From assembly GCA_947500385.1 (NCBI GenBank), contig CANMSA010000017.1:81053-145052 (forward strand): a stretch of 64,000 nucleotides of DNA, given 5' to 3'. A model generated the notes under the pieces. It did not search any database and was not told where the DNA came from. It was given only the letters and a program-made list of their open reading frames with translations. Origin of the DNA: an uncultured Flavobacteriaceae bacterium (GTDB lineage Bacteria > Bacteroidota > Bacteroidia > Flavobacteriales > Flavobacteriaceae). Below, piece by piece: positions 3,001 to 18,988 of this stretch (within the stretch, counting starts at the first letter, position 1; each line of letters opens with the position of its first letter). Both the position numbers and the translations under genes were made by a program.

Positions 3001-6000
3001 CAGAAACCTTCACGCTTTCCGCTTCGGCTGCGGTGACCCAGTCGCCGACCTGTAATCCCGCCTTAGGTACCGAGGTACGCATCCTAAATGCCCAAGGGGG
3101 GACCCAGGCTTACGAATATAGTTTTGATGGTGGAAATACCTATGGAGCTTCGAACTCGGCATTTTTACAGCCCGGAACCCATTTGTTGTTCCTGAGGGAC
3201 GCTAATGGGTGTACCTTTGAAATGTCGGTTACTATAGACCCCATTCCAGATAACCCCACTTTTATACACGATGTCACTTATGACTGTACCGGTCAAGGAA
3301 CAGTAACCGTAACACCAAGTTCTACCGATTTCGATTATACCTATACTTTGGATGGTACGCTGAACACGCCTTCGGATTCCAATATTTTTACCGGTGTTGC
3401 ACCGGGCTTTCATACCGTTACGGTAGATTATCTGCCTTCTACCCCCTTGGCTCCAAGTGTCTTGTTGAGCGAGACCTTTGGTTCCGGGGCCAATACGGCT
3501 ATTTCAGAAGTGGATCCAGTGTATTGTTACGAGCCCCAAAACGGTACGGACAACGGCTGCCCCCATGCCAGTGCCATTAACAGGATCAATGATGGGGAAT
3601 ACTCCGTGACCCAGTCAATTGTTAGTCCGTTCGGTACCTGGATCGACCCCAATGATCATACAGGAGACACCAATGGACGCTATTTGGCCATGAATGTGGG
3701 CGATGTAGCCGGAACTTTGGGAATCATTTATGCCAAACGAAACATTACCGTTGTTGCCAACAGGGATATCGATATCTCGCTCTGGGCGATCAATCTGCTT
3801 CGACAAGGCACTTCCGGTGCTGACCCTAATGTCCTGATCGAACTGGTTGATGGATTGGGCAACAGTATAGCGAGCACTACCACCGGTAATATTCCAAAGA
3901 GTACTGGACCGGACGATTGGCGCAACTATAGCGTAACACTGAACCCAGGCGCCAATACTACCTTGGATATTGTAATAAGAACCAACTCCATCGTCATCGG
4001 GGGCAACGATATAGCGGTAGATGATATTCAAGCTACCCAGGCCGCCGAAGATTGCCCACAACAAGAAGTCTTCCAAGTTTTCGTAGAGGACGGTAGGGCC
4101 TTGACCGCTACCGTCACTGCACAGATAAACCCGCTTTGTGTGGGCGATACCAATGGTGCGATTACTTTTGAAGTCGAAAACTTTGACGTCACAGGGTTCA
4201 TTTACTCTACCGATGGCGGAACAACCTTTTCTGCGCCTCAGACCACTTCACCGGTCACCATCAACAATCTTGCGGCTGGAACCTACGATATTGTAATTCA
4301 GGATGCTTCCAATGCGGCCTGTAGTACCTCGCTGACTGTAACACTTACCGACCCCGCCCCTCTGGTGACTACGGCAACATTGACACAACAAATGAGCTGT
4401 ACCAATATGACGGCGATCATTACCGCAGCGGCTACTGGTGGCACTCCGGGCTATGAATATCAGCTCGAAAACGCCGCAGCTGTGGTGATTACCCCCTTTC
4501 AGACCAGTACCACTTTTGCGGTCAATGCTGCAGGTGATTATGTAATACGCGCAAGGGATGCAAACGGATGTGAAGATTTGACGGACACGCCAATAACCAT
4601 AAATGAACCGGAGACCGTGGTGTTTAGTACAACGCCCTCAAATTGTTATAGTGGAAATAACGATGCCACCATTCAGGTAGATGTAACCGCGGGTAACGGT
4701 AACTATCAGTTTCAAATTGACAATGGACCTTGGATTACGCCAAACCCCGCAACCGTTACCACCTATACGTTTGGAAGCTTGCCTTCTGGCAGCTATACCA
4801 TTAACGTCAAAGACGGTTTTGGATGTATTGGGACGGCTGAAATCGTCACCATAGACCCTGTCTTGTCCGCTCTTGTAGATGTTACCGAAATAAGCGCGTG
4901 CGTGGATGGTGCCATTACCGTAACTGCCTCGGGTGGGGATGGTAACTATGTCTATGCCTACGTGCCCACGGGTAACAGTCCGGCCGGAACCTTTGGCGCT
5001 AGTAATACCTTTGCCGTTTCAGCGGCCAATAGTGGAACCTACGACGTGTACGTCCGAGACAACGCAGGGAATACGCCCTACTGCCAATACCTACAGACCG
5101 TAACCCTGGATCCCCCCATAGCATTAAGTTTTACGGCGACCCCGGAGGACCCACAATGTAACGGCGAAAACGGACAGATTACTGTTGTCGTAACCACTGG
5201 TGAATTGCCTTATGATATGGAAGTCAGGGATTTGAACAACGGCGGTGTAGTAGTGGCTACCTACAACGATCAACTACAGGCTACCCGAACGTTTTATAAC
5301 TTGGCTCCTGGCAATTACGAAGTGGTCGTTACCGACGGGGACGGTTGCGCATTGAACCAAGCACCCATTGCCATAAACGATCCGGATCCGCTAACTGCCG
5401 ACATCAATCCAATATTGCCAGCGGCCTGCGACGATCCCAATGCCTTGAACTACGGATTTGAATTTATCAATTATCCCACCACCTTGAACGGCACGCTACA
5501 GTTCAGTAACGATGGGGGGCTTAGCTGGTCTACCAATGACACCTTTATGGGTCATATTTCTGGAAGTTCGGTATTCCCATCCATCAGAACTGTCGATGCC
5601 TTGGGCAATACCTTGTGCCGCTTGGATTTTCCAAGATACATTATTCCATATCCACTGGATGAACTGAACATAACGGTGTTGCCGCAAATTGCGAATTGTG
5701 TTGAATTATTGGTATCGGTACAAGGTAGCGAAGGGATACCACCCTATGAATATACCTATACCGATAATCCTGCCAATTTTGATCCTTTGACAGCTACTTG
5801 GGATGGTCCTTTTGTGGCGACTGTGGTACATCAATATACCGGTTTAATTCCAGGAAGAACCTACGTTTTTTATGTAAGGGATAGCGCGGGTTGTATTCGC
5901 CAAAGCAGTGTAAACGTAAACGATCTGGTTGCCAATCCCTTTGATATCACCGGCACTTTTGAGCCTTCTTGTTTCGGGGCCAATGATGGTAGTATTGACT

Positions 6001-9000
6001 TCACCATTGTAAACAATAGTGGCACCACCTATCCCCAAATGCACTGGGAGTTCTATGACCTGAATACGGGACTTATCGTACAGCAGAGCCCTGGCAACGT
6101 GCCATGGACAGGAACACTTTTGTTTAACAATCTACCTCCTTCGGAATATTACGTAGTGGTCACAGGAGTAGATGCCACCAATACGGATCAGTGTGTTACC
6201 GGCAGTGAAAACCAATTGATCATTGAACAGCAGGCCATTACCGCCGACCTAAGCGGAGAGGATATGACCTGTAGCACCCCTGGATACATCTTTATTGAAA
6301 ATATTAGCGGCGGAGGAGGGTCCTATACCTTTAACGTAACCGGACCGGCAGGTTTTACAGCTATTACCGGTACAACGGCCAATCCTATTGAGATTGCGGC
6401 AAATTCACCATCAGGTACCTATACCGTACAAGTAGTAGATCAATACGATTGTGACTTTACGGATACCGTAGGTCTCGTATTACCGGCAAACCCGACCATA
6501 GATAATGTGGCCATCGATAATTGTGCCGACCCTTCAACGGTTACCATTACCGCCAGTGGTCCATCGGCAAATTTTGTCTATTCATTGGATGGAGGTGTCA
6601 CTTATGTAGATAACGGTGGCATTTTTACCAATGTGGCCGCAGGCCCCTATACCATTTTTGTCAGAGATGGGAACGGCTGTACCGCAACTGAAAATATTAC
6701 GGTGCATCCCATACTACAGGGAAGAGCGGAATTGACAAAATTACTGGATTGTACGGTCTCCCCCGATGCCGAAATTACGATAGAAGCCCTGCAAGGTTCA
6801 GGAGATTATGACATTACCATCAATGACGGTACCGTGGACGTGGTGCCTAGGACGGCGATGGCTACAAACCCATATGTATTCGCTACGCCCAATGACGGAA
6901 CCTATACCGTGACGCTTTGGGATAATGATACCGATCCCAATTGTTTTAGGGAATTGGTTGTGGAAGTACCCGTATTGGTAGAACCTGCGTTTACTCCCGA
7001 TCCGGTGGATGTCACTTGTTTTGGAGGAAATGACGGTGCCATTATTGTTAATGAACTTGATTTGGGTATTGGTCCCATCAGCTATGTCCTTACTCCTGCG
7101 GTAGACCCCTACAATGTGGCGACAGGAAGGTTCGAAAATCTACCGCAAGGAACCTATAGCATTACGGCTACTGCAGCTAATAGTTGTTCCAATACGATCA
7201 ACAATATTGTCGTAGGACAACCGGCACAAATAATGGTGCAAGATCCTGTTGTGGTGCCCTTTGCATGTAGTGCGGGCAATACCCCCACCAATGCGACCAT
7301 TATCGTCGATGCCACAACCATCACTGGTGGTAGTGGAACGTATTTGGTGTATGAGTTTATCAATGATGGAACCGCCGCCGTTGTGCAAAGAGGTACATTG
7401 ACCACCTATGTGGAAACCGATTTGGCGGGTGGAAACTATACCATCAATGTATACGATGACAATGGATGTTTAGGTACCACCACCGCCACGATCGAACCGT
7501 ATGATCAACTTATCGATGCTACCATCAACGTTACGCCGGTAAGCTGTGTACCCGGTAATGACGGAGGTTTAGCGGTTACTGTAAATTCTACCTTGGGCAA
7601 CACTGCCTTGTTCGAATATAGCCTTGATAACGGAGCTACCTATCAGCCATCCAATGTCTTCAGTAATCTTACCGCAGGCAACTACCTGGTTACGGTAAGG
7701 CATACCGATACCCAATGCATCATCACGGCAAATGCTACCATTGAGGAACCCAATACCTTTGAAATAGAAGTTGATGTACAACAGGATGTGGTTTGTTTTG
7801 GTACTGATACCGGAGAAGTTACCCTCCAATTCACCGATGCGACCTACGGTGGCAGTTTTAGCTATACCGTATTCGATATGAACGGTACACCAGCCGATGA
7901 CACTGATGATATTTCCGTGGCAACAGGATCCGAATCCGTAAATACCACCACTGCTGTAATTACCCTTGGTGCCGGTTCTTATCGGGTCGTTGCTATTCAA
8001 GATGCCGCTCCACAATGTACTCAGGAAACCGTATTCAGCGTAGGAACGCCCTCTGCTGCGATTACAGGATTGGCCCGAGAAACCGATATTACCTGTAATC
8101 CCGGCAATGATGGTATCATCGAAATCTATGACGTAGAAGGCGGTTGGGGCGGATATTCGTACTATGTGGGTACAATACCTCCGGTCGATGCCAGTAGTTT
8201 TGTGGCTACCCCGAGATTCGAGAACTTGGTTGCAGGTACTTATGAGGCATGGGTCATTGACAACAGAGGTTGCCAACAGCTGATCCAGGACAATATCGTG
8301 TTGGAAGATACGACACCGATAACCGCTACCCTTCAGGTGAACAGTGAAAATTGCACAGGTACCGATGGTGAGCTTGAAGTTATCAACATTGTCGGGGGCC
8401 AAGGAAGCAATTATACATTGCAACTGATTAAAGATGGTACCGATTTCGGTGCCCCGCAGACAACAACGCTTTTTAGCGGTCTTGGAGCCGGTTCATATGA
8501 AGTGCGTATTACCGATCAATGGGATTGCACGGTAACTATTGGTCCTGAGGTCTTCTATGAACCTATGGTGGCTACCTATGATATTGTTCAGACCATCGAT
8601 TGTGATGCTGATGGGGAAATTACCGTTACTGTAACGGGAGGTTCCGGTAATTTTGAATACCGTTTACTGCTTCCTGGGGGAACTACACAGACCAATACAA
8701 CCGGCGTGTTCACCGGCTTGAACCATGCCGGAAATGCCCCTGCGGACTATGTGTTCACCATCATAGATCTTGATACAGACCCACAGTGCAGCACGCCCGT
8801 GACTGTTACCCTTGATAAGCCTACACCGGTAACCTTATTGACTACTGATGGGACCGATTTAAGTTGTCCGGGTGCAGATGATGGTACCATTACCATAAAT
8901 TTGGAGCCTACTACCGACGGCGTCAACGATAATCCCATTTACATCTTTACCATTGAGAATACCACTGTCGGTTCCGCTCCGGTTACACAAGACAATCCCC

Positions 9001-12000
9001 TTTTCAGCAGTCTTGCCCCAGGTGTTTACGACATTACCGTGACCTCTGGTAGGGGATGTGAAGCCACCGATCAGGTAGAGATTCTTTCTCCTGTGCCTTT
9101 GGATGCGGCCATTACCGATGTGGTACCGTTCTCCTGTGATATGGATAATGCTATTCAGATGGCCCAGATCGAAGTGACCATTACTACCGGTACCGGTACT
9201 CCCGACTACTATTATAGCGTAAACAATAGTCCGTTCTTGCCGACCAATGGCGAGGTATTCGTACATACCGTTACCACCGATGGTGCTTATGACATCGTTG
9301 TCAGGGACGCCAATGGCTGTTTGTTTGCCTTGCCGACACAGAATATTGATCCGCTTCCTCAGATCGTATTGAGTATTGCGGAAGGCACTACGGACTGTAC
9401 CTTAGGACAAGAAATTACGATTACCTCTACGGGTCATGCCACTAATCCTTCCGTAGACCTTTCGTTTGAGGTGTTGGAGACCGGCACGGTTCAAAACAAC
9501 ACCACCACCGGTATTGAGACTTTTTACGTATTGGATTCCGGACAGTATACCATACAGGTCACTGATAACACTACAGGCTGTTACGAATTCATTAACTATA
9601 CGGTACCGACCAGGCCCGATTGGGATGTGGCCATTACCGCAAGTACCCCAGTCCTTTGTTTTGGAGATGCCAACAGCACCTTGGAGGTTACGTTTACCGG
9701 ATACTCCGGAGTGTATGACTATGAGGTGTTCAATGAAGATGGCACTGCTGCAGTGGCAAGGGTCAACGGCGAAACCATCCATCCGCTCACTATAGTGAAT
9801 ATGCCGGCCGGCAACTACTTTGTACGTGTTTGGCCAACGGAGTATCCCTATTGCGAGGATAAGGAAACCTTGGTTGAAACTATAGTTTCCCCAGATGCCG
9901 AACTCTTGCCGGTGACCAACTCCGAATTGCAGGCGGGTTGTACCAATGACCTGGGCGAGATTAGTGTTGTTCCGGAAGGAGGTTATGCGCCATACGATAT
10001 TGTGTTGACCCATAGTGGGGGCCAACAATATACGGCTACCGACGTGTTCTCAGAAGTCTTTATCGGTTTGCCCTCAGGAAGTTACACTATTATGGTAACA
10101 GATGCCGAAGGTTGTGTCTGGAATGGAGCGGAGACGGTTGACCCGACTCCACCGATTTCGGCTTCGGCAACAGGTACGGCACCGATTTGCTTTACCGACC
10201 CAGATGGAACAATAGAGGTTACGGCAACCGGAGGTTCTGGTAGTTACAACTACTTTATCAACTACTACGATCCAACGGGAAGTACCATTGAGTTCACCCC
10301 CGAGGTACCGCAACGAGCCAATGAGTTCAACAATCTTGGTGAAGGATATTACAGTATTACCGTTGTCGACAATTTAGGCTGTACCGATACCACCAACATT
10401 GTTCACCTAGATGGTCCTGATCAGCTTATAGCCGAAATTGCCCTGGTCACGCCCATGACCTGTGTTGACCCGGCCGTGGTTACCGTTACGGCAACGGGCG
10501 GTACTGCACCTTACGAATATTTCAACACGACCACTAGCGCATGGGAACCGTTCAATCAACTTAGTGGAGCGGGACAGCACAGTATCAATGTGGCGACTTC
10601 GGGAACATATTACGCGCAGATTCGAGATGCCAATGGCTGTGAGGCCATAACGCAAGTCCCTGTGGTGGTACCCATGGTGCCCCCGGTACAATTGCGTATC
10701 GATTATGCCAGTGAATCGGTGACCTGTGCCGACGATATGACGGCTTCGATCTATGCCTCGGCTATTGGAGGAATAGGCCAGTACACCTACGAACTGGTAT
10801 TAGGGGGAGCGGTAGTGGCTACACAGACCCAGCCCGATGCCGTGTTTGAGAATATTGCACCAGGAGCGTATACTGTTCGGGTGACCAGTGAAGGTGGATG
10901 TCCTCCCGATGAGCTTCCGGTATCTATAGCCAATCCGGCTCCATTGATCTTTACCTATGACGTGCAGGATGTAAGCTGTACCGATGAGGAAGATGGTGCC
11001 ATTACCCTTATGTTGGCCGGTGGCGGTGGCGGGTATCAGTTTGCCATATCACCTAATCTTAATCAGTTCTTTGATGAGGATCTAGACCAAGGGCTACCAG
11101 CAGGACAGTATCGCTTTGAAGATCTAACACCAGGTACGTATACCTTAATTGCGCAGGATCTTAACGGTTGTTTCTTTGTGGAGGAATTGACTATTGCGAA
11201 CCCTACACCGATTGCAATCAGTTTGGACAACGTGGTTCCCGAGGCCTGTGTTGGCGATGCCAACGGATTCGCAACCATAAGCATTAGTGGTGGTACGCCC
11301 CCATACCGTACGGCCTTTAACTCGAACGAAGCCGCAGATTTTACGGATCTAGGAGACAACATCACCTTCAACGGCTTGCCCCAAGGTACTTACTTTGTTT
11401 TTGTCAGGGATGCCAACGATTGTGAAATGAATAGTATCGTTGAGGTAGAAGGTGGGGTAAATCTAAATGCTACCGTAATCCCGATTTACAAGTGTACGGC
11501 CAATGTTCCGACGAATTATTTGGAAATAGTTTTTGAGGACCCCACCGTATTGGGCGATGTCATGTACGCCCTAGACCTTGCCGATCCAAATGATACTTCC
11601 GGAATGCGATTGGATGCGAATTTTACCAACCTAACGCCGGGCCCCCATACACTCAGCATAGCTTCGGTCAGTACAGGCTGTGTGGTTATCTATGACTTTG
11701 TGATAGAAAGCTTTGAACCGCTTGAGTTGACCCTTGAAAACAATAATCTCAATGAGATTACAGCCTTGGTCACTGGTGGATTGCCGCCCTATACCTATTA
11801 TTTTGAAGGTATACCTTCGGCTTCTTCCTCTTACTACATCTATCGTGATGGTCTGTATACCGTACGCGTTGTCGATAGTAATGGTTGTGAAGCCTCGGCT
11901 CAAATTGAAATGGAATTCATCGATATTGAAATCCCGGAGTTCTTTACGCCGGATGGTGACGGCCTCAATGATTTTTGGACGCCCGTAAACATAGAGCAAT

Positions 12001-12191
12001 ACCCTGATATTGTTATAAAAATCTATGATCGATACGGCAGGGTAGTGGAAGAACTCACGGCCAATGTTCAGGGATGGGACGGCTTGTATAATACCAAACC
12101 GTTGCCAACAGGCGATTATTGGTACGTGGTTCAGCTAAACATTGAAGGCAATAATCGGGAGTATGTCGGACACTTCACGCTGTTTAGATAA
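3..12191 (+). CDS. Giant SprB-like T9SS type B cell-surface adhesin, 3' part
   Basis: The frame is open from base 3 to the TAA at 12189-12191 (about 4060 residues), so the true start lies left of the window. The protein is a chain of roughly forty ~95-residue modules. Each has a Cys near its start, a 'GG..PY.Y..DGG' core, an 'F..L..G.Y.V.V.D' strand and a closing 'GC', which matches the SprB repeat family of flavobacterial gliding adhesins. At about 3460-4060 the chain is broken by one different module (around 'LLSETFGSG', 'NGRYLAMN', 'IAVDDI') that reads like a MAM/jelly-roll beta-sandwich. The last ~90 residues ('FFTPDGDGLNDFW' to 'GHFTLFR') are a gliding-motility/CHU_C C-terminal domain, the T9SS type B sorting signal. 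I infer a secreted surface filament for adhesion or gliding. Its partner and ligand are not visible. The many antisense open frames inside it are repeat artefacts. Confidence 0.93.
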   Translation, partial: CQYTTITSGNSFSVGDAGKYRLVVDEGNGVSTIHYFHVFQNNLEVEYLKADIGCEPTGNITITNLGNTYGFQLVNADTDQILIPFSAGNGPAFTITANGNYRVEVTQLNPLTGNPIANGCIFSTPDVAIGTSNFQVQGSATEADCAGVGTVTADLSGGSPSYTYELRLNDGLDGGRGTLIDVVTNVAPNSYTFTGVGQGEYVVVGINSDGCEQSDLATVVSGSDSTLSFESRVSQHITCKEGNILVDPSGGKPPYRYAIWQNIDESNNVVTSYNSPSEIPSSEFQTREIFDILTPGNYTFVVIDRLGCFTTSNSVDIEFVPPAEFADATIIDQICFGDPTGSIRMNLIDDGGYQLTYYLFNGTIPQQNVFDGNFDLANAIDFNSSGYFPGLIAGDYTMIINMRKGSASCDYPYYHTINGPPSALAGEAILIQPFSCSQTGTIRANNYGGGIAPYEFSLDGANWQADDMFIGLQPGPYTIFVRDDSGCVIETNPVEILPVDEPDDLEFATTQITCADPTSDLTVTAIGGTAPFTVQIISPSTQAPTSLTNNVAVFENLAPNTYILEVIDVNDCSYTESYTILPITPIGVVGNLNNNVSCDGANDGALTYTVAGFDTTFSYVVVNGSGTTIDSGTGVNTTTIALNNLTGEDYTIIVTDDVTTCEATANVLIGAPATPLSATIVVTDLGCTATGTNPGSVTINATGGWGNYSFELTDPLGTTQGPQAVNIFSGLTDTSGTYTVTITDGGGCETTDTFSLTPIDLPVLELVPNNPCYDDITGLTLTANVTSGGDGDFRYRLNGGGYTTNNVFNGLAPGTYTVDVIDGRNCTATQTITVDPQMSVSATTRPIAACETSTDVVITASGGDGNFVYAVVTSGTTPAAGDFGVSSTIAINMAGNYDVYVRDNGGNVEYCEATDVVTITQNPTLQMNVTIDPQVIPCAGTNNGSISIAPTGGAAPYLFSIDGGTTFGTQSTFVNLASGDYAIVVLDNNGCEVSEIHNIPETFTLSASAAVTQSPTCNPALGTEVRILNAQGGTQAYEYSFDGGNTYGASNSAFLQPGTHLLFLRDANGCTFEMSVTIDPIPDNPTFIHDVTYDCTGQGTVTVTPSSTDFDYTYTLDGTLNTPSDSNIFTGVAPGFHTVTVDYLPSTPLAPSVLLSETFGSGANTAISEVDPVYCYEPQNGTDNGCPHASAINRINDGEYSVTQSIVSPFGTWIDPNDHTGDTNGRYLAMNVGDVAGTLGIIYAKRNITVVANRDIDISLWAINLLRQGTSGADPNVLIELVDGLGNSIASTTTGNIPKSTGPDDWRNYSVTLNPGANTTLDIVIRTNSIVIGGNDIAVDDIQATQAAEDCPQQEVFQVFVEDGRALTATVTAQINPLCVGDTNGAITFEVENFDVTGFIYSTDGGTTFSAPQTTSPVTINNLAAGTYDIVIQDASNAACSTSLTVTLTDPAPLVTTATLTQQMSCTNMTAIITAAATGGTPGYEYQLENAAAVVITPFQTSTTFAVNAAGDYVIRARDANGCEDLTDTPITINEPETVVFSTTPSNCYSGNNDATIQVDVTAGNGNYQFQIDNGPWITPNPATVTTYTFGSLPSGSYTINVKDGFGCIGTAEIVTIDPVLSALVDVTEISACVDGAITVTASGGDGNYVYAYVPTGNSPAGTFGASNTFAVSAANSGTYDVYVRDNAGNTPYCQYLQTVTLDPPIALSFTATPEDPQCNGENGQITVVVTTGELPYDMEVRDLNNGGVVVATYNDQLQATRTFYNLAPGNYEVVVTDGDGCALNQAPIAINDPDPLTADINPILPAACDDPNALNYGFEFINYPTTLNGTLQFSNDGGLSWSTNDTFMGHISGSSVFPSIRTVDALGNTLCRLDFPRYIIPYPLDELNITVLPQIANCVELLVSVQGSEGIPPYEYTYTDNPANFDPLTATWDGPFVATVVHQYTGLIPGRTYVFYVRDSAGCIRQSSVNVNDLVANPFDITGTFEPSCFGANDGSIDFTIVNNSGTTYPQMHWEFYDLNTGLIVQQSPGNVPWTGTLLFNNLPPSEYYVVVTGVDATNTDQCVTGSENQLIIEQQAITADLSGEDMTCSTPGYIFIENISGGGGSYTFNVTGPAGFTAITGTTANPIEIAANSPSGTYTVQVVDQYDCDFTDTVGLVLPANPTIDNVAIDNCADPSTVTITASGPSANFVYSLDGGVTYVDNGGIFTNVAAGPYTIFVRDGNGCTATENITVHPILQGRAELTKLLDCTVSPDAEITIEALQGSGDYDITINDGTVDVVPRTAMATNPYVFATPNDGTYTVTLWDNDTDPNCFRELVVEVPVLVEPAFTPDPVDVTCFGGNDGAIIVNELDLGIGPISYVLTPAVDPYNVATGRFENLPQGTYSITATAANSCSNTINNIVVGQPAQIMVQDPVVVPFACSAGNTPTNATIIVDATTITGGSGTYLVYEFINDGTAAVVQRGTLTTYVETDLAGGNYTINVYDDNGCLGTTTATIEPYDQLIDATINVTPVSCVPGNDGGLAVTVNSTLGNTALFEYSLDNGATYQPSNVFSNLTAGNYLVTVRHTDTQCIITANATIEEPNTFEIEVDVQQDVVCFGTDTGEVTLQFTDATYGGSFSYTVFDMNGTPADDTDDISVATGSESVNTTTAVITLGAGSYRVVAIQDAAPQCTQETVFSVGTPSAAITGLARETDITCNPGNDGIIEIYDVEGGWGGYSYYVGTIPPVDASSFVATPRFENLVAGTYEAWVIDNRGCQQLIQDNIVLEDTTPITATLQVNSENCTGTDGELEVINIVGGQGSNYTLQLIKDGTDFGAPQTTTLFSGLGAGSYEVRITDQWDCTVTIGPEVFYEPMVATYDIVQTIDCDADGEITVTVTGGSGNFEYRLLLPGGTTQTNTTGVFTGLNHAGNAPADYVFTIIDLDTDPQCSTPVTVTLDKPTPVTLLTTDGTDLSCPGADDGTITINLEPTTDGVNDNPIYIFTIENTTVGSAPVTQDNPLFSSLAPGVYDITVTSGRGCEATDQVEILSPVPLDAAITDVVPFSCDMDNAIQMAQIEVTITTGTGTPDYYYSVNNSPFLPTNGEVFVHTVTTDGAYDIVVRDANGCLFALPTQNIDPLPQIVLSIAEGTTDCTLGQEITITSTGHATNPSVDLSFEVLETGTVQNNTTTGIETFYVLDSGQYTIQVTDNTTGCYEFINYTVPTRPDWDVAITASTPVLCFGDANSTLEVTFTGYSGVYDYEVFNEDGTAAVARVNGETIHPLTIVNMPAGNYFVRVWPTEYPYCEDKETLVETIVSPDAELLPVTNSELQAGCTNDLGEISVVPEGGYAPYDIVLTHSGGQQYTATDVFSEVFIGLPSGSYTIMVTDAEGCVWNGAETVDPTPPISASATGTAPICFTDPDGTIEVTATGGSGSYNYFINYYDPTGSTIEFTPEVPQRANEFNNLGEGYYSITVVDNLGCTDTTNIVHLDGPDQLIAEIALVTPMTCVDPAVVTVTATGGTAPYEYFNTTTSAWEPFNQLSGAGQHSINVATSGTYYAQIRDANGCEAITQVPVVVPMVPPVQLRIDYASESVTCADDMTASIYASAIGGIGQYTYELVLGGAVVATQTQPDAVFENIAPGAYTVRVTSEGGCPPDELPVSIANPAPLIFTYDVQDVSCTDEEDGAITLMLAGGGGGYQFAISPNLNQFFDEDLDQGLPAGQYRFEDLTPGTYTLIAQDLNGCFFVEELTIANPTPIAISLDNVVPEACVGDANGFATISISGGTPPYRTAFNSNEAADFTDLGDNITFNGLPQGTYFVFVRDANDCEMNSIVEVEGGVNLNATVIPIYKCTANVPTNYLEIVFEDPTVLGDVMYALDLADPNDTSGMRLDANFTNLTPGPHTLSIASVSTGCVVIYDFVIESFEPLELTLENNNLNEITALVTGGLPPYTYYFEGIPSASSSYYIYRDGLYTVRVVDSNGCEASAQIEMEFIDIEIPEFFTPDGDGLNDFWTPVNIEQYPDIVIKIYDRYGRVVEELTANVQGWDGLYNTKPLPTGDYWYVVQLNIEGNNREYVGHFTLFR

Positions 12192-12934: not shown

Positions 12935-14167
12935 ATGAAGACTTCAAAAACATTTAAATTGCTTTTTTGGCAGGTAATGACCAAGAAAAAAGGAACCGAC
13001 GCCCCGATTTATGCTAGGGTGACGGTGAACGGCAAAAGGGCCGAAATAAGCCTAGATCAGTGGTTTCCCGTGGCTTTCTGGGATGCGAAAATGAGCCGCG
13101 CCGCTGGGCGCAGCATCGAGGCACGAGAACTCAACTATCATTTGGACAAAGTACAAATCGCCATTGCTGACGTACACGAAACATTGTTAAAAGAAGGACG
13201 GTTTGTAACGGCACAAGCCGTGAAGGCCCGTTATCTAGGGACTGACAACCACAATGCTACTTTAGGGGACATCATCCTGTACCATAATGACCAAATGAAA
13301 GGGGTACTTGAATACGGTACGCTTAAGAATTATGGCACCACCAAGAAGTATTTGACGGCCTTTCTAAACAAAAAACACAAGACCCTTGATATTTATTTAC
13401 GGCAATTGAATTACCGCTTTGTGGTAGATTTTGAGCAGTTCCTACGGCGACCGGAGAACCATTTAAGCAGGCTCCCCTTGACCAACAATGGCATCATGAA
13501 ACACCTGGAACGGTTGAACAAACTCATGAACTTGGCCGTAAAATTGGAATGGTTGGAGAAGAACCCCTTTGCCAATTACCAATTGAAGTTTAAAAAGTTC
13601 GACCGCCCTTTTTTGACCCTTGCGGAGCTGCACACCTTTGAAACGATTTCCTTGGAAAGGTTGACGCACCAAAAGGCCCGGGACCTCTTTGTTTTTGCTT
13701 GCTATACCGGCCTCTCTTATATTGATGTAAAGAATTTGACCAAAGAAAACCTAGTTTTTGGGATGGATGGGAAAAGGTGGTTGTCGCTATACCGCGAAAA
13801 AAGCGATCAGCCGGTGAAATTACCTTTGTTAAGCAAAGCAGCTGCTATTTTGGAGAAGTATTCTCCCGACCAAATGAGTAGGCGGTTATTGCCCATGTAC
13901 TCCAATCAAAAGATCAATACATATCTAAAAGAGTTAGCCGTACTATGTGAGATAGACAAACATTTGAACTATCATGTGGCCCGGCATACCTTCGCGACAA
14001 CGGTCACTTTGTCGAACGTGGTGCCTATTGAAACCGTTTCAAAGCTATTGGGCCATAGTAAGCTATCGACTACCCAAATTTACGCGCGGGTATTGGAGGA
14101 TAAACTTAGTACTGATATGGCCGACTTAGAGGGTAAACTCAAAGGCCTTGAAAGAAATGTATCCTAA
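12935..14167 (+). CDS. IntDOT-like tyrosine recombinase (site-specific integrase)
   Basis: A 410-residue DNA strand-exchange enzyme of the Bacteroidota integrase type. It has an arm-DNA-binding N-terminus (about 1-90), a SAM-like core-binding domain (about 105-200) and a catalytic domain (about 210-400). Visible catalytic residues are K289, H347-x-x-R350, H374 and nucleophile Y383 ('IYARV'). The first conserved Arg is replaced by Ser261 ('TGLSYIDV'), as I recall for CTnDOT integrase (S259). It lies 343 bp before the cassette array and on the same strand. This differs from classical integrons, where intI is usually divergent. I infer that it moves the island, the cassettes, or both. It is full length with no disruption. 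Confidence 0.93.
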   Translation: MKTSKTFKLLFWQVMTKKKGTDAPIYARVTVNGKRAEISLDQWFPVAFWDAKMSRAAGRSIEARELNYHLDKVQIAIADVHETLLKEGRFVTAQAVKARYLGTDNHNATLGDIILYHNDQMKGVLEYGTLKNYGTTKKYLTAFLNKKHKTLDIYLRQLNYRFVVDFEQFLRRPENHLSRLPLTNNGIMKHLERLNKLMNLAVKLEWLEKNPFANYQLKFKKFDRPFLTLAELHTFETISLERLTHQKARDLFVFACYTGLSYIDVKNLTKENLVFGMDGKRWLSLYREKSDQPVKLPLLSKAAAILEKYSPDQMSRRLLPMYSNQKINTYLKELAVLCEIDKHLNYHVARHTFATTVTLSNVVPIETVSKLLGHSKLSTTQIYARVLEDKLSTDMADLEGKLKGLERNVS

Positions 14168-14510
14168 TCCGGAATTATTTGAAGAATCTGCAAAAATGAC
14201 TCAAAATGAGTGTTAAATCGTTCTCCAGCTAAACCTTAAAGTATAGGTGCTTCCTAAATTCTGAATTGACAGTCAAATCACAAAGAACCGTTGTGGCCTC
14301 TTAGGGTATAGCAGTTTTTTTAGTAAGCTGTGATAGTTCTTCTTATAAAAATATTTACAGATTACACTACGGATACCCATAAGAAACCATTTTAACTTTT
14401 TCTGTATCTTGTGGTGCCTTTATTTCTTTCCTTATTAGATTGACCTTTTATTTACGTTAAACGACACCTGTGGTATATAAGGTGGATATAGTTAATAGCT
14501 ATATCTCATT
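14168..14510. other. Integrase-to-array spacer
   Basis: This 343-bp gap holds no gene I can support. It includes a short palindrome at about 14199-14211 (ACTCA AAA TGAGT) and the 7-bp inverted repeat at 14485-14505 next to the first cassette boundary. A promoter for the array would be expected here, but I could not identify a convincing -33/-7 pair. Confidence 0.4.
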
Positions 14511-14520
14511 GTTGTATGCA
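14485..14520 (+). other. attI-like insertion point at head of cassette array
   Basis: GATATAG (14485-14491) and CTATATC (14499-14505) form a perfect 7-bp inverted repeat, followed by the first cassette boundary GTTGTATGCA at 14511-14520. All later boundaries are preceded by AGCCGAACC, whereas this one follows CTATATCTCATT. It is therefore a different kind of site, as expected for the primary attachment site of a cassette platform. Function is inferred. Confidence 0.45.
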
Positions 14521-14526
14521 ATTTGA

Positions 14527-15108
14527 ATGACTAACGAAATATACTATACCGCTTTAGAAATTTATGATTCCGAAACAGGAGATGAATTCAGTTGGGGGAA
14601 ATATATAGAATGGTCAAAACTGACTCATCTGACCGAATTAGTCTCCCTTGATGGTATGCTTAATGGACTTGCGTTTAAACCTGATTTTGACTCAAAAGAC
14701 GATTGGAATTATATCGTAACTGATGAAAACATAGCAACCGTATTTTTCAATTCCAGAGAATATGTTTTAAGCAAAGTAAAGGATTTAGACCACTTTAATT
14801 TTTTAGCAGTAATCAAAGAACCGAACGAACAAAAAGCGGAATTAGAAACTGAATTTGAATTTATCGGATACGACCTAATTGAAAAAGATGGAGACATTAG
14901 TGCTTTAACTAATTGTGGCGGATTTGACGAAACATTTGCACCAACTGACTTAAATGAATTCGGTCTGATTTCTGATTACGAGAAAGTAAAAAAAATTCAA
15001 ACGGAATTGCAGATTAACAATCCTGCTGAACATCACGCTGATTGTTATTTATATGAAGTTTGGAGACATAAAAATATTGGAAGAAAAACTGCATACAACA
15101 AAACCTAA
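14527..15108 (+). CDS. Cassette 1 hypothetical protein
   Basis: A 193-residue acidic protein with no signal peptide or membrane segment, so probably cytoplasmic. I recognise no family. It starts at ATG only 16 nt after the cassette boundary at 14511. Its last codons run into the terminal element: the inverse-core bases TGCATACAAC (15090-15099) encode part of the final 'TAYNKT'. Such overlap is typical of tightly packed gene cassettes with little untranslated sequence. Base use is more AT-rich than in the adhesin or the PUL, which fits acquisition. Confidence 0.75.
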   Translation: MTNEIYYTALEIYDSETGDEFSWGKYIEWSKLTHLTELVSLDGMLNGLAFKPDFDSKDDWNYIVTDENIATVFFNSREYVLSKVKDLDHFNFLAVIKEPNEQKAELETEFEFIGYDLIEKDGDISALTNCGGFDETFAPTDLNEFGLISDYEKVKKIQTELQINNPAEHHADCYLYEVWRHKNIGRKTAYNKT

Positions 15109-15281
15109 ACGTAATGCGGACTTTAGGGCTGAATCGAGAGGTCTGTGTATATTTATGAAGTCGCTAAATCTTTAGGATTTAGCTTTGGACAAAAAAAGAA
15201 AAAGCAAAACCAAAAGCTTTAGCTTCGTGCGCAGACGGAAACCAAAAGTTTCCTTGCTTCCGCACTACGCTTAGCCGAACC
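15090..15281 (+). repeat. attC-like element 1
   Basis: It opens with TGCATACAAC and ends with TTAGCCGAACC. The outer arms pair imperfectly: CTAAACGTAATGCGGA (15105-15120) against TCCGCACTACGCTTAG (15259-15274), 14 of 16 positions. Two inner hairpins are GCTAAATC/GATTTAGC (15163-15183) and GGAAAC/GTTTCC (15237-15253), separated by an A-rich tract. Confidence 0.75.
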
Positions 15282-15303
15282 GTTGCCAGTAATTTTAGAC
15301 ACA

Positions 15304-16047
15304 TTGAAAAAAATAATTATTGTTACTATTATTTTCTCATTTCTGTGTTGCTCAAGTCATGAAGAAGTTCCCAAAGAACTGAGTTACTCTTTTGAGTACT
15401 TAAATGAAGTTTGGGATCCTGAAGACATAGAATTCTTTAAAAACATAAAAGAGAATGATACAACACCAAATGATTTGCATTTTGGAATAGGACTACATTT
15501 GAGAAACAACTTATTGCGGCACCATGCCAAATCGGATTCCATAGTGGCATATTTCAATTCGTTGGGAATAACCCACTATGATTATATGTCTGGTTTAATA
15601 TTATATTCCTACCATCAATATCTGAACGGCGAAAAAGTCTATATCCAAGACAGAGTGAATGAAATTATAGAAAGTGAAAAGCCATATAAAGAATGTATGA
15701 AAAAACAGATAATAATAGGCTTAGAAAAATATAATAGGTTTAAAATAAATGATACGATTAATGTCAAAATGCCTGTTAGCGAATATAATAGCGTTGTGGA
15801 TTTTTCTTGTCCGAATTTGGACTGGGACTTTAACCAATCGAAGGACTTATCAATTGACGGAATAATTACAGAGAAATATTTTAAAGTCGATTCAACAGAG
15901 CCAGTAATAAAGGTCAAAGTTTTGGACAAGAACCACCCACTGACTGAAATAATGATGGAGGAGGTAGACGTAGGAGACGAATTTGAGGTATGGCTACAAG
16001 AAACGGCTTGGAAAATAAAAACTACTGGCAACAATGGCTATAATTAA
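15304..16047 (+). CDS. Cassette 2 predicted lipoprotein
   Basis: About 247 residues if translation starts at TTG 15304, which gives a clean lipoprotein signal (Lys-Lys, hydrophobic stretch, 'FSFLCCSS'). The frame is open back to 15283 but contains no ATG in a sensible place. The start is 22 nt from the cassette boundary GTTGCCAGTA at 15282. The mature part is hydrophilic and of no family I recognise. The final codons overlap the inverse core TACTGGCAAC (16023-16032), as in cassette 1. Probably exported to the periplasm or outer membrane; role unknown. Confidence 0.7.
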   Translation: MKKIIIVTIIFSFLCCSSHEEVPKELSYSFEYLNEVWDPEDIEFFKNIKENDTTPNDLHFGIGLHLRNNLLRHHAKSDSIVAYFNSLGITHYDYMSGLILYSYHQYLNGEKVYIQDRVNEIIESEKPYKECMKKQIIIGLEKYNRFKINDTINVKMPVSEYNSVVDFSCPNLDWDFNQSKDLSIDGIITEKYFKVDSTEPVIKVKVLDKNHPLTEIMMEEVDVGDEFEVWLQETAWKIKTTGNNGYN

Positions 16048-16218
16048 TACGGTTTTAAGGGCTTAACGCCAAGTTTAGACATATTTATGAAGTCCGCCAA
16101 ATCTTTTGGATTTGGCAATTAAAAAAATAAAAATAATTACAATGCAAAAAAGCGATGGCTAGCGGACCCGACGGAAACGAAAAGTTTCCTTGCCTGCCCT
16201 ACTTGCTATAGCCGAACC
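16023..16218 (+). repeat. attC-like element 2
   Basis: It opens with TACTGGCAAC and ends with ATAGCCGAACC. Inner hairpins are GCCAAATC/GATTTGGC (16096-16116) and GGAAAC/GTTTCC (16173-16189). The outer arms share GGCTATA (left) and TATAGCC (right). Confidence 0.75.
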
Positions 16219-16239
16219 GTAAGCAATTAAAATAAACAT

Positions 16240-16986
16240 ATGAACAGAATTTTTCTCCTAATAGTATTATTTACATCTAGCCTTTCGTTTGGACAGGTAG
16301 AGAAGAAATTATTTGTTTACGGTGGACAAGTAAACAAGGAATTCATAAAATATACCGCAGAATTAACAGGTAAAGAAAACCCAAAAATATGTTTTATACC
16401 TACCGCTACTGCTGACAACCAATACTACATTAATTATTGGTATGAACTCTGTTCAGGTTTAACCTTAACACCAAAGGTTATGGAAGTTTGGATTAATTCA
16501 ACTTCACAAAAAGAATCATTTGAAGAAATATTGTTGAGCATGGACGCCATAATTGTAGGTGGTGGCAACACTTTAAATATGTTGGCTATATGGAAAGCCC
16601 AGGAGATTGATTTAGCACTAAAAAAAGCATATGAGAAGGGAATAATAATCGCGGGTGGAAGTGCAGGGTCTTTATGCTGGTTTAATGCTGGAACAACGGA
16701 CTCTAGACCTAAAGAGTTAACAATTGTGAAAGGGCTTGGATTTTTGGATTTCAGCCATTGTCCGCACTATCATTCTGAAGAAACCAGAAAACCTCTTTAC
16801 CATAAAAACATACTGGAAAAAAAACTGTCTGATGGATATGCTTGTGATGATAAATCAGGCATTCTATTTATCAACGGAAAAGTTAGCAAAAGCCTCTCAA
16901 CAGATTCCGAGTCTTTTTCCTATTATGTTTATGAAAAAGATGGAAAAATAATTGAGGAAAAACTAACGGCTGAAATCATAAAATAA
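16240..16986 (+). CDS. Cassette 3 secreted S51-family peptidase (cyanophycinase/dipeptidase E-like)
   Basis: 248 residues with an N-terminal signal peptide ('LLIVLFTSSLSFGQ'). The fold is the class I glutamine-amidotransferase-like one of peptidase family S51: 'KLFVYGG', 'ICFIPTAT', 'AIIVGGGNT' and the nucleophile elbow 'GGSAGS' with Ser141. A His-containing 'SHCPHYH' segment is placed as expected. Family members (PepE, cyanophycinase) cleave Asp-X or beta-Asp-Arg bonds; the substrate here is unknown. It starts 21 nt after the unit boundary at 16219, and its stop is immediately followed by element 3. The export signal is unusual for PepE-type enzymes. Confidence 0.8.
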   Translation: MNRIFLLIVLFTSSLSFGQVEKKLFVYGGQVNKEFIKYTAELTGKENPKICFIPTATADNQYYINYWYELCSGLTLTPKVMEVWINSTSQKESFEEILLSMDAIIVGGGNTLNMLAIWKAQEIDLALKKAYEKGIIIAGGSAGSLCWFNAGTTDSRPKELTIVKGLGFLDFSHCPHYHSEETRKPLYHKNILEKKLSDGYACDDKSGILFINGKVSKSLSTDSESFSYYVYEKDGKIIEEKLTAEIIK

Positions 16987-16987
16987 C

Positions 16988-17178
16988 TGCTTACAACAAA
17001 ACCTATAAGCAATATGGGCTTGGCTGCTTAAGTTATAAACCCGGAATATCAACAAACACCGCCAAATCTTTTGGATTTGGCATTAAATAAAAAAAGAAAA
17101 AGCAAAACAAAAAGGCTTGGCTTATTGCGTGGCGGAAAGCAAACGCCAGTTTGCTCCCGTACTGTTCATAGCCGAACC
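16988..17178 (+). repeat. attC-like element 3
   Basis: It opens with TGCTTACAAC and ends with ATAGCCGAACC. The outer arms CTATAAGCAATATGGG (17003-17018) and CCCGTACTGTTCATAG (17156-17171) pair over most positions. Inner hairpins are GCCAAATC/GATTTGGC (17061-17081) and AGCAAAC/GTTTGCT (17138-17155). Confidence 0.75.
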
Positions 17179-17286
17179 GTTATGTGTGATGAAACAACCA
17201 AAAACACCGAAAATATAAATAATGAAAAGCTTTCCATTTTATAAACACCTAGACTCGATGGAATGTCTGGCATAAAAAACTAATTA

Positions 17287-18540
17287 ATGAAACACTTATT
17301 TATTATTACTATTTCTTTGCTGAGCATTACCTGTAATACTAAAAATGAAGATCAGAAAAAGTTAGATTTTGTGAAGTTTGACTTTCATTTTGATACAGAG
17401 TCAAATGAAGTGCCATACAATTTTTCTTCATATTGGGATACCATTCCTACAATTGTCGATAGAACAGCATGGGAATTTGCCAAAATCGGAAACATACAAA
17501 GTATGCATGAGATTTGGGATACGAAAGAATCAATTGAAATTGGACTTACTCAGGAACAACGAGATAGTTTTGGCCTCTACCAAGCAATGGATGCAATAGA
17601 TTACATATTGAATGAAGCTGAAGAGCACCAAGTAGTCATCGTCAATGAAGCTCATCAAATGCCCCAACATCGAATTTTTACTACTCGACTACTTGAAGGA
17701 CTCAAAAGAAGAGGTTTTAAGCACTTAGGGATGGAAGCATATTTTAATACGCCTCAAGCAGATTCAATTATGCAAGCCAATGGTTATCCTATTCTTGATT
17801 CTGGATATTTTACACAAGAACCTCAATTTGGCAATTTAATAAGAACTGCCTTTGATATGGGGTTCAATATATTTGGGTACGAAAGCAGTGGACATGCTAA
17901 TGGGAAGGAAAGAGAAATTAATCAAGCCCGGAATATTGAACCCTATCTAAATCGATACCCCAACGAAAAGATATTAGTTCATTGTGGTTTTGATCATGTG
18001 TACGAAGGAGATATGCCTAACAATTCCATGGGTTGGGGAAAGGCGATGGCAGGGAGATTGACGGAATTTACAGGAGTTGACCCATTAACCATAAGTCAGA
18101 CAATTTATTCTGAAAAGGGTAATAGGGATTACGAAAACTCGTACTATCAGATTACAGATCTAGAAAGACCTAGTGTTTTTGTCAATGAATCTGGTGAGCT
18201 ATTTGGTCAGCAACGAAAGAAAACCTCTATTGATTTACCTCCTATGGGCACATTCAGGTATGACATAGCAGTTTTCCATCCAAGAAGTAAAAAGTACGAT
18301 CGTCCGCAATGGATGGTGTATGGTGATCGTAAAGAAGTGGAAATATCATTTGTTGAAGAAAATATCCAGTGCCCATGTTTGGTACTTGCCTACAAAAAAG
18401 GTGAGAAAGTCGGCAAAGCCGTTCCTTATGATATACAAGAGACCGATGATAAGAAGGTTACATTAGTTTTAGATAAATCCGACTTTGAAATTGTCATATT
18501 GAATCAGAAGAACATAGCCCTAAAAGCTGAATTTAACTAG
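17287..18540 (+). CDS. Cassette 4 lipoprotein, EreA/ChaN-like fold
   Basis: 417 residues with a lipoprotein signal ('LLSITCNTK'). The segment 'VVIVNEAHQMPQHR' followed by 'LKRRGFKHLGMEAYF' matches the Glu-x-His...Arg signature of the erythromycin-esterase/ChaN/Tiki-like superfamily. A later His ('LVHCGFDHVYEG') would complete the site. It could be a hydrolase, but resistance to a macrolide cannot be claimed from sequence. The C-terminal ~110 residues look like a separate beta-rich domain. The gene sits 108 nt from the boundary at 17179, the longest leader in the array, and is the largest cassette gene. Confidence 0.65.
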   Translation: MKHLFIITISLLSITCNTKNEDQKKLDFVKFDFHFDTESNEVPYNFSSYWDTIPTIVDRTAWEFAKIGNIQSMHEIWDTKESIEIGLTQEQRDSFGLYQAMDAIDYILNEAEEHQVVIVNEAHQMPQHRIFTTRLLEGLKRRGFKHLGMEAYFNTPQADSIMQANGYPILDSGYFTQEPQFGNLIRTAFDMGFNIFGYESSGHANGKEREINQARNIEPYLNRYPNEKILVHCGFDHVYEGDMPNNSMGWGKAMAGRLTEFTGVDPLTISQTIYSEKGNRDYENSYYQITDLERPSVFVNESGELFGQQRKKTSIDLPPMGTFRYDIAVFHPRSKKYDRPQWMVYGDRKEVEISFVEENIQCPCLVLAYKKGEKVGKAVPYDIQETDDKKVTLVLDKSDFEIVILNQKNIALKAEFN

Positions 18541-18645
18541 GCATCATTGCAAAAACTTTATTTTCAAATAGATAACCAAAAGATTTTTATGGGATGGGAG
18601 ATATAGTAGAATAGATGAATTAATCCAAATCAAGAATAGAGTCAC

Positions 18646-18833
18646 CACACATAACAAAGTATAAAAACAATAGGGCAATTGTGGCGAAACTAAAAAGTTC
18701 GGGCGCATTTGCAACTTCGCCAAATTTTTAAATTTGGCTTATTGAAAGAAAAAAATAATAAGAAAAATTTAAAAATTCGGCTTGTGTTCAACCGAATGGT
18801 AGTCGCTCATTTTCAGCGCTACTGTTCTTACGA
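18646..18833 (+). repeat. attC-like element 4, truncated at right end
   Basis: It opens with CACACATAAC and has hairpins GCCAAATTT/AAATTTGGC (18719-18738) and ATTCGG/CCGAAT (18775-18797). A degenerate right arm, GCGCTACTGTTCTTAC, resembles the right arm of element 3. The closing AGCCGAACC is missing; the sequence runs straight into a bfmA-like fragment. This is the distal end of the array. Confidence 0.6.
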
Positions 18834-18988
18834 AGACTTACCCGTTTTGAAGACTTCAAAAACAGGGAAGCCTTCAAGGTCATCAAATTTGATTTGGAAA
18901 TGGACCTGCTGTATTTCCGAAATTTCTTGACTACCGAAGCCTTGATGCTGATGCTCTTAAATTGTTCTTTTTCGTATCCTTTATCCAT
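18834..18988 (-). pseudogene. Truncated BfmA/BtgA-like mobilization protein fragment
   Basis: Read leftward from 18988, the first ~45 residues ('MDKGYEKEQFKSISIKAS', 'RKYSRSISKSNLMTL') match the ribbon-helix-helix-like N-terminus of Bacteroidota BfmA/BtgA mobilization accessory proteins, as I remember them. The reading then loses similarity and collides with the end of attC-like element 4, so the C-terminal half is gone. It marks former mobilization functions on this island. Family assignment is from memory of the motif, not a search. Confidence 0.5.

Follow-up and report, generated by a model that had tools for sequence, protein, structure and literature searches.

A candidate integron-type cassette system of Bacteroidota whose probable recombinase lacks the IntI-specific domain

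Four consecutive gene units in the genome of an uncultured Flavobacteriaceae bacterium (GenBank assembly GCA_947500385.1; 6.03 Mb in 123 contigs) are very probably cassettes of an integron-type system of the Bacteroidota, moved by a recombinase that is related to XerA and IntI but lacks the extra domain of IntI. The units lie at positions 14511-18843 of the window, the 64,000-nucleotide stretch analysed here (bases 81053-145052 of contig C17). All are on the plus strand, and each consists of one main gene and a folded terminal element. A preliminary description, made from the letters of the window, had likened this organization to an integron cassette array; the likeness is sustained by the pairing of units with their own end boxes, by their single orientation and by the presence in the source genome of 38 such sites, spread over nine contigs with one orientation per contig (search model R1, E ≤ 0.1).

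Model R1 was trained on the terminal elements of cassettes 1-3. Cassette 1 (14511-15281, plus strand) carries a gene at 14527-15108 whose 193-residue product has no Pfam match, and ends in an attC-like site at 15097-15281 (plus, 197.7 bits); the R'' box (15088-15099) stands directly left of this site, and the predicted cut side, C|GTT, is at 15281|15282. Cassette 2 (15282-16218, plus) has a gene that runs to 16047 and encodes a DUF6794 protein (PF20594), with its attC-like site at 16030-16218 (plus, 159.4 bits). Cassette 3 (16219-17178, plus) encodes a peptidase S51 (PF03575; gene 16240-16986) and ends in a site at 16995-17178 (plus, 182.0 bits). These three sites belong to the training set. 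The site of cassette 4 (18653-18843, plus), outside that set, was retrieved with 60.5 bits (E 2.4e-10); the cassette itself extends from 17179 to 18843 (plus), and the product of its gene (17287-18540) has a weak ChaN/Tiki-type similarity, under the Pfam cut-off. The sequence GCCGAACC directly precedes units 2-4. Gene 1 starts 16 nt and gene 3 21 nt past the boundary, as does gene 2 at 22 nt if the TTG at 15304 is used, and genes 1 and 2 extend into their own terminal elements. The layout given in the preliminary description is confirmed. The same description had regarded the elements as longer than typical attC sites, but length turned out to be no mark of the family, since the sites measure between about 45 and 247 nt, with two main sizes around 124 and 190 nt.

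In IntI integrons the start of a cassette completes its own end site, and the same relation is found here. It is the most telling sign in these units, and the preliminary description had overlooked it. In units 1, 2 and 4, the first 12 nucleotides mirror the box at the left of their own element at 11 of 12 letters (GTTGTATGCAAT against GTTGTATGCAGT in cassette 1), and the sole odd letter is an A facing a C, which corresponds to G.T when the bottom strand is read. Cassette 3, which begins with GTA instead of GTT (a 3-nt loss), still agrees with its own box, at 16985, at 9 of 10 letters. The relation was quantified in three sets of cassettes, using those that have both a GTT start and an AAC box (137 of 157, 72 of 77 and 49 of 52), which left out 20, 5 and 3 cassettes, respectively. 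For set 1, which comes from 195 sites in 36 loci, the value obtained with the own box was 6.69 of 9 letters, in contrast to 3.27 when the preceding element supplied the box and likewise 3.27 upon shuffling (maximum 3.58 in 200 shuffles). The corresponding values were 6.97 for set 2 (shuffled 3.22, maximum 3.74 in 1000 shuffles) and 6.86 for set 3 (shuffled 3.08, maximum 3.86 in 1000 shuffles; preceding element 3.02). The predicted pairing ties together the two ends of one unit and not neighbouring units, as expected from a circle closed at GTT. Letter 11 of the cassette start is an A in 258 of 258 cases, and in 122/137, 59/72 and 38/49 cassettes of the three sets it faces a C on the top strand, hence G.T on the bottom one, the first count being derived from mismatch counts with and without that letter. 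This letter is outside model R1, with which set 1 was found, and inside a second model, R2, with which sets 2 and 3 were found. At the other mismatches of the R stem, read on the top strand, A.C outnumbers G.T by 21 to 9 in set 2, while in set 1 there is hardly any lean (34 versus 28). GTT and AAC are kept, and the GTTRRRY consensus, whose absence the preliminary description had pointed out, occurs in 15 of the 258 starts.

Model R2 was built from 50 hand-chosen short sites of eleven genomes. In these sites 98.3% of the cells are paired at 19 named pairs (AAC/GTT plus the L stem), 10 pairs are changed on both sides, and covariation amounts to 0.325, versus 0.091 upon shuffling. Two G.T pairs, which read as A.C mismatches on the top strand, are present in all 50. 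When 137 sites were refolded with their own cassette start added, the bottom strand was predicted to be the more stable in 124 (mean -31.0 versus -27.2 kcal/mol). Covariation and predicted folding both point to an R''-L''...L'-R' end site that folds on the bottom strand, as in IntI integrons. A single orientation was observed in 36 of 36 loci. Before counting, some hits were dropped from each set: from set 1, 8 that were truncated or very short; from set 2, 16 that were weak, very short or on the other strand; and from set 3, 3 other-strand shadows.

The sites are widespread. R1 detected them in 28 of 40 genomes and R2 in 108 of the 296 genomes of a phylum sample, the source genome included in both cases. 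As the preliminary description had anticipated, arrays with variable cargo at the same boundary were retrieved from Bacteroidota. On contig C40 the source genome has another array, whose genes encode ParDE, a TIR protein, a CdiI-type immunity protein and a GyrI-like regulator. In a defence scan of nine proteins, one, the TIR protein of this array, was recognized, and none of the four cassette proteins of the window was. Comparison of the loci yielded seven cases in which two full-length copies of a cassette stand in different contexts: six within genome G023 (one of them in tandem) and one between G003 and the source genome, at 82.9% identity. The pairs were selected for their full-length match, and it is their flanks that constitute the test: GTT is common, whereas the 40 letters past it agree at 0.41 and the 40 letters before the copy at 0.54 (means), the latter value being affected by the resemblance that preceding end sites have to each other anyway. 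Arrays are common and whole cassettes recur elsewhere, unlike dispersed single copies without replacement at GTT, which the preliminary description had named as the outcome that would speak against it.

Which enzyme acts on these sites? In agreement with the preliminary description, no match to the IntI family model (TIGR02249) over the cut-off was found in the source genome. The best one, at 203.8 bits for a cut-off of 265, is a recombinase of 381 residues encoded on contig C1 (757294-758439), 153 nt before the contig end, which scores 219.2 bits with NF040815 (cut-off 220). This protein and its relatives in 17 other genomes, picked from the 40 genomes for having a match, were read with their surroundings. 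Co-directed sites lie downstream of 11 of the 18 recombinases and 3 have sites on the other side in a divergent layout, so that 14 have sites beside them; the remaining 4 are at most 206 nt from a contig end, as expected where repeats break the assembly. Among 80 named loci fetched by their recombinase, 24 hold sites at E ≤ 0.01. In 23 of these 24, all 75 sites are downstream of the recombinase and co-directed with it, and in the other, 2 sites are upstream, in a divergent layout; of the 56 loci where no sites were found, many are brief sequences or belong to other phyla. In the phylum sample, sites and recombinase occur together in 64 genomes, the recombinase alone in 30, sites alone in 44 and neither in 158 (odds ratio 7.7, Fisher p 2e-14; recombinases were counted at E below about 1e-65, and p is only a guide as kin genomes are not independent). 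Among the matches listed, 41 of 115 sites are found within 40 kb of such a recombinase, and 16 of 25 genomes have at least one site so placed.

The array-associated recombinase departs from IntI in a defined region. The distance between the lysine motif and HxLRH is 64 residues in 24 of 25 array recombinases and 65 in one, in contrast to 106 in the five IntI measured (of 11 looked at); it is 72 in a Xer. The array enzyme thus lacks about 42 residues found in all five IntI measured, and in an alignment to 2a3v, 65 IntI residues stand opposite 22. Among solved structures, its best relative is XerA (5hxy). A tree of 33 proteins, few of them Xers and none XerA, groups the array recombinases with IntI against three Xers (100/99), and not with the chromosomal Xers of the XerC/XerD dif system. 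The long form of the enzyme has an additional N-terminal domain, for which no Pfam family over the cut-off and no PDB sequence match below E 0.27 was obtained. Short array recombinases (about 215-330 residues), devoid of this domain, were seen in seven loci; they are divergent from their cassettes, as intI1 is, whereas long ones are co-directed.

The best-surviving alternative, which I nevertheless regard as improbable, is that a true IntI moves the elements, which would be ordinary attC sites; the window would then be a plain CALIN (a cluster of attC sites without integrase) and the Xer-like neighbours bystanders. True IntI is indeed encoded, over the cut-off, in 84 of the 296 genomes of the phylum sample. 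The attC of the veb1 cassette, which resides in class 1 integrons, fits R2, and, in the parts of PMC3518468 consulted, IntI1 is described as using it at low efficiency. The window itself has four sites, and its genome encodes no IntI over the cut-off, as would be the case for a CALIN, but its sites are off the IntI consensus, and the scarcity of GTTRRRY starts argues against this alternative. Furthermore, IntI is absent over the cut-off not only from the source genome but also from the 30 sample genomes of the same family, 20 of which have sites; in the 10 genomes that have both sites and IntI, no site lies within 40 kb of IntI among the matches listed; and the heads of arrays are held by the Xer-like recombinase, not by IntI. 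The count of 84 genomes with canonical IntI is, in itself, higher than a passage in PMC9024848 suggests.

A second alternative is raised by the gene next to the array, an IntDOT-class tyrosine recombinase (12935-14167, plus strand; PF13102, PF00589, PF17293). The preliminary description placed the array behind this enzyme; the gene is real, and its part as partner of the cassettes is unsupported. It stands 343 nt before the attI-like boundary; the attI-like site (14485-14510, plus) is an imperfect palindrome, GATATAGTTAATAGCTATATC, followed by TCATT and directly preceding the GTT of unit 1, the window reading GATATAGTTAATAGCTATATCTCATT|GTT from 14485. In genome G001, a relative of 75% identity is likewise followed by this attI-like motif and by a cassette, and no array-type recombinase above the Xer level was found in G001. 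However, 16 of 18 IntDOT homologs have no such site behind them (14 by a palindrome scan and two copies in G003 by the same scan, which missed the site of G001, read by eye, and so may overlook weak palindromes), and for most homologs no such array follows. Attachment-like sequences go with the other family: 12 of the 18 array recombinases have, past their stop codon and before the first cassette, an attI-like stretch (by eye), as does the integrase of an IntI integron with its cassettes behind. Its form is a GTTn7A start after an A/T-rich core (for example TATATAAACAA) or after a palindrome with a CAATT-like end. Searched with up to 3 mismatches, a pattern of the form seen in the window occurs at 9 places in 8 of the 40 genomes, the source genome among them, and at 0 places in the backward control. 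In G004 and G010 the same attI-like site follows the broken end of an array recombinase. It is thus very unlikely that the IntDOT-class enzyme moves the cassettes, and this candidate was set aside. The remnants in G004 and G010 suggest instead that the array of the window is likely an orphan, which would have kept a relic attI and four cassettes while the enzyme is encoded elsewhere in the genome.

Least plausible of all is that the elements are non-recombining interspersed repeats such as terminators or RNA structures: they do follow genes and fold well, but a plain repeat should show neither the pairing with the start of the preceding unit that is seen in three sets of cassettes, nor one orientation in all 36 loci, nor a place beside one recombinase family, and a structured RNA is disfavoured because neither the window nor two other arrays gave any Rfam match at the gathering threshold (one sub-threshold match is off the array).

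Several observations weigh against an integron-type system run by the Xer-like recombinase. With the threshold used, 44 of the 108 site-bearing genomes have no such recombinase and 30 of the 94 recombinase genomes have no site; G271 and six other genomes have at least 4 sites but no such recombinase. In genomes with both, 74 of 115 sites are far from any recombinase among the matches listed, and the IntI genes of the phylum could move some of the sites. In set 2 the across-junction value, 3.89, exceeds the shuffle maximum of 3.74, though it is far below 6.97. The fold matches of the N-terminal domain are weak, YciH/eIF1 folds scoring close behind XPB. The four cassettes of the window were not found elsewhere in the compared loci, and neither recombination, circles nor strain polymorphism were seen.

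A mechanism can be proposed for the integron-type system. The bottom strand, once single-stranded, would fold into one long hairpin consisting of the R pair, an unpaired spacer, the L pair and a variable tip, the L pair holding two invariant G.T pairs. On the top strand the same positions are A.C mismatches, so that they would set the strand that may fold apart from the other. Cleavage by the recombinase would take place near C|GTT and free cassettes as circles, and these would be inserted at attI or some other site. The hairpin may be read by the N-terminal domain of the long enzyme form, for which a likeness to the first domain of the XPB helicase is predicted. It is likely, in short, that the related bacteria run a gene-swapping system of their own. 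In the open-licence literature, with subscription papers and preprints outside the scope, no description of such a system was found.

How does this putative system relate to known ones? It resembles the class 1 and Vibrio chromosomal integrons in having attI after the integrase, one-gene cassettes in a single orientation and an end site that folds on the bottom strand through R and L pairs. It differs from them by a recombinase without the insertion of about 42 residues, by boxes that are cassette-specific past GTT/AAC, by invariant G.T stem pairs and by a long enzyme form with an extra N-terminal domain. In the part of PMC9668308 consulted, integrons of the IntI type are defined by an integrase that has the IntI-specific additional domain. 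By its layout and logic the candidate system is an integron, but it departs from IntI integrons in two features, the extra domain of the enzyme and GTTRRRY, which makes it a variant and not a member. Like a CALIN, the array of the window lacks a neighbouring array recombinase, but CALINs are defined by IntI-type attC, whereas here the enzyme is likely of another type and a relic attI appears to be kept. With archaeal XerA and with XerC/XerD the array recombinases share the core fold of a simple tyrosine recombinase; unlike XerC/XerD, they side with IntI in the tree and adjoin arrays, not dif. IntDOT/CTnDOT-type elements, to whose integrase class the window's nearest integrase belongs, move as one block between att sites, whereas here single-gene units would be the moving parts.

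The surroundings of the window's array include other features. A repetitive protein of 4039 residues is encoded upstream (72-12191, GTG start as listed). A perfect 17-bp direct repeat, TGAAGACTTCAAAAACA, is present at 12936-12952, at the start of the IntDOT gene, and at 18848-18864, just past cassette 4 and in the start of a bfmA-type mobilization gene (18788-18985, minus strand, cut off). The two copies may delimit an IntDOT element with the array as its cargo; no empty site was seen. The cassette behind the IntDOT relative of G001 (positions 5349-6446 of locus L194, contig C23) encodes a protein that, by eye, is Ser/Thr protein kinase-like.

Relatives of the array recombinase also occur on plasmids, in 990 plasmid records at E 1e-15, all at less than 60% identity and with a match coverage of at least 80% in 6. 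Four plasmid regions were examined in detail. On the Chryseobacterium plasmid NZ_CP041688.1 a recombinase is followed by three co-directed sites, with a cargo that includes RidA-family and metallophosphoesterase genes. On the Flagellimonas plasmid NZ_CP092416.1 (locus L240), two sites lie upstream of a short recombinase, in a divergent layout, and no attI-like start was found by eye behind that recombinase; a dihydrofolate-reductase-family gene stands cassette-like between the two sites (3909-4762), with erm(F) nearby, outside the sites. Two further recombinases, both short at the N-terminal side, precede resistance genes: in Klebsiella michiganensis, on an IncC plasmid, blaVEB-3 follows one of them directly, and on an Acinetobacter plasmid tet(X3) follows the other. 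The spacers, CGAATATTTTATTCG..|GTTAGCGGTAAT and TATACGCCATTTGGCGTATAGCCACTT|GTTATGTGCCAT, respectively, show a palindrome and then a start with A at letter 11. On the Klebsiella plasmid the blaVEB-3 unit is truncated past its gene, so that no end site of its own is visible. Behind tet(X3), R2 found no end site, and by eye the stretch past the gene agrees with the start only partly, so that for tet(X3) the claim is limited to a putative attI-like stretch and cassette start. The arrangement of xerD and tet(X3) appears in a passage of PMC7494873, and a passage of PMC7473080 notes xerD beside tet(X) and suggests a test of its role. When a stretch of a class 1 integron was searched with R2, the veb1 attC matched from end to end (56.5 bits, E 7.9e-11) and showed the same A/G letter 11. 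The remainder of the stretch, which contains four further resistance cassettes and part of another, gave no R2 match up to E 10. The portion of PMC3518468 consulted gives this attC a length of 133 bp and describes it as departing from the consensus and poorly used by IntI1. The veb1 cassette is unlike the arrays described here in that it is found in class 1 integrons of other phyla and is GC-richer. From these arrangements, I infer that blaVEB and tet(X3) may have entered as first cassettes of Bacteroidota integrons.

A broader scenario, to which I give somewhat less than an even chance, is that the Bacteroidota have an integron lineage of their own, whose recombinases never gained the IntI domain and read folded single-stranded cassettes by G.T pairs and a fork-binding head domain. 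IntI would have arisen from or beside this lineage, which would be the source of the blaVEB and tet(X3) genes now on hospital plasmids, acquired as first cassettes. The cassette system proposed here offers testable answers to two questions, namely whether xerD, where it precedes tet(X), plays a part in moving that gene, as raised in the passage of PMC7473080, and why the veb1 attC, according to the portion of PMC3518468 consulted, departs from the IntI1 consensus and recombines poorly. The IntI domain has been taken as what makes an integron integrase. If cassettes across the phylum are indeed moved by a different recombinase, folded single-stranded cassettes can be captured and shuffled without that domain and without GTTRRRY, and the origin of some hospital resistance cassettes would be explained. 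It would also open a pool of cassettes that IntI-based surveys likely miss, and provide a candidate for how integrons arose.

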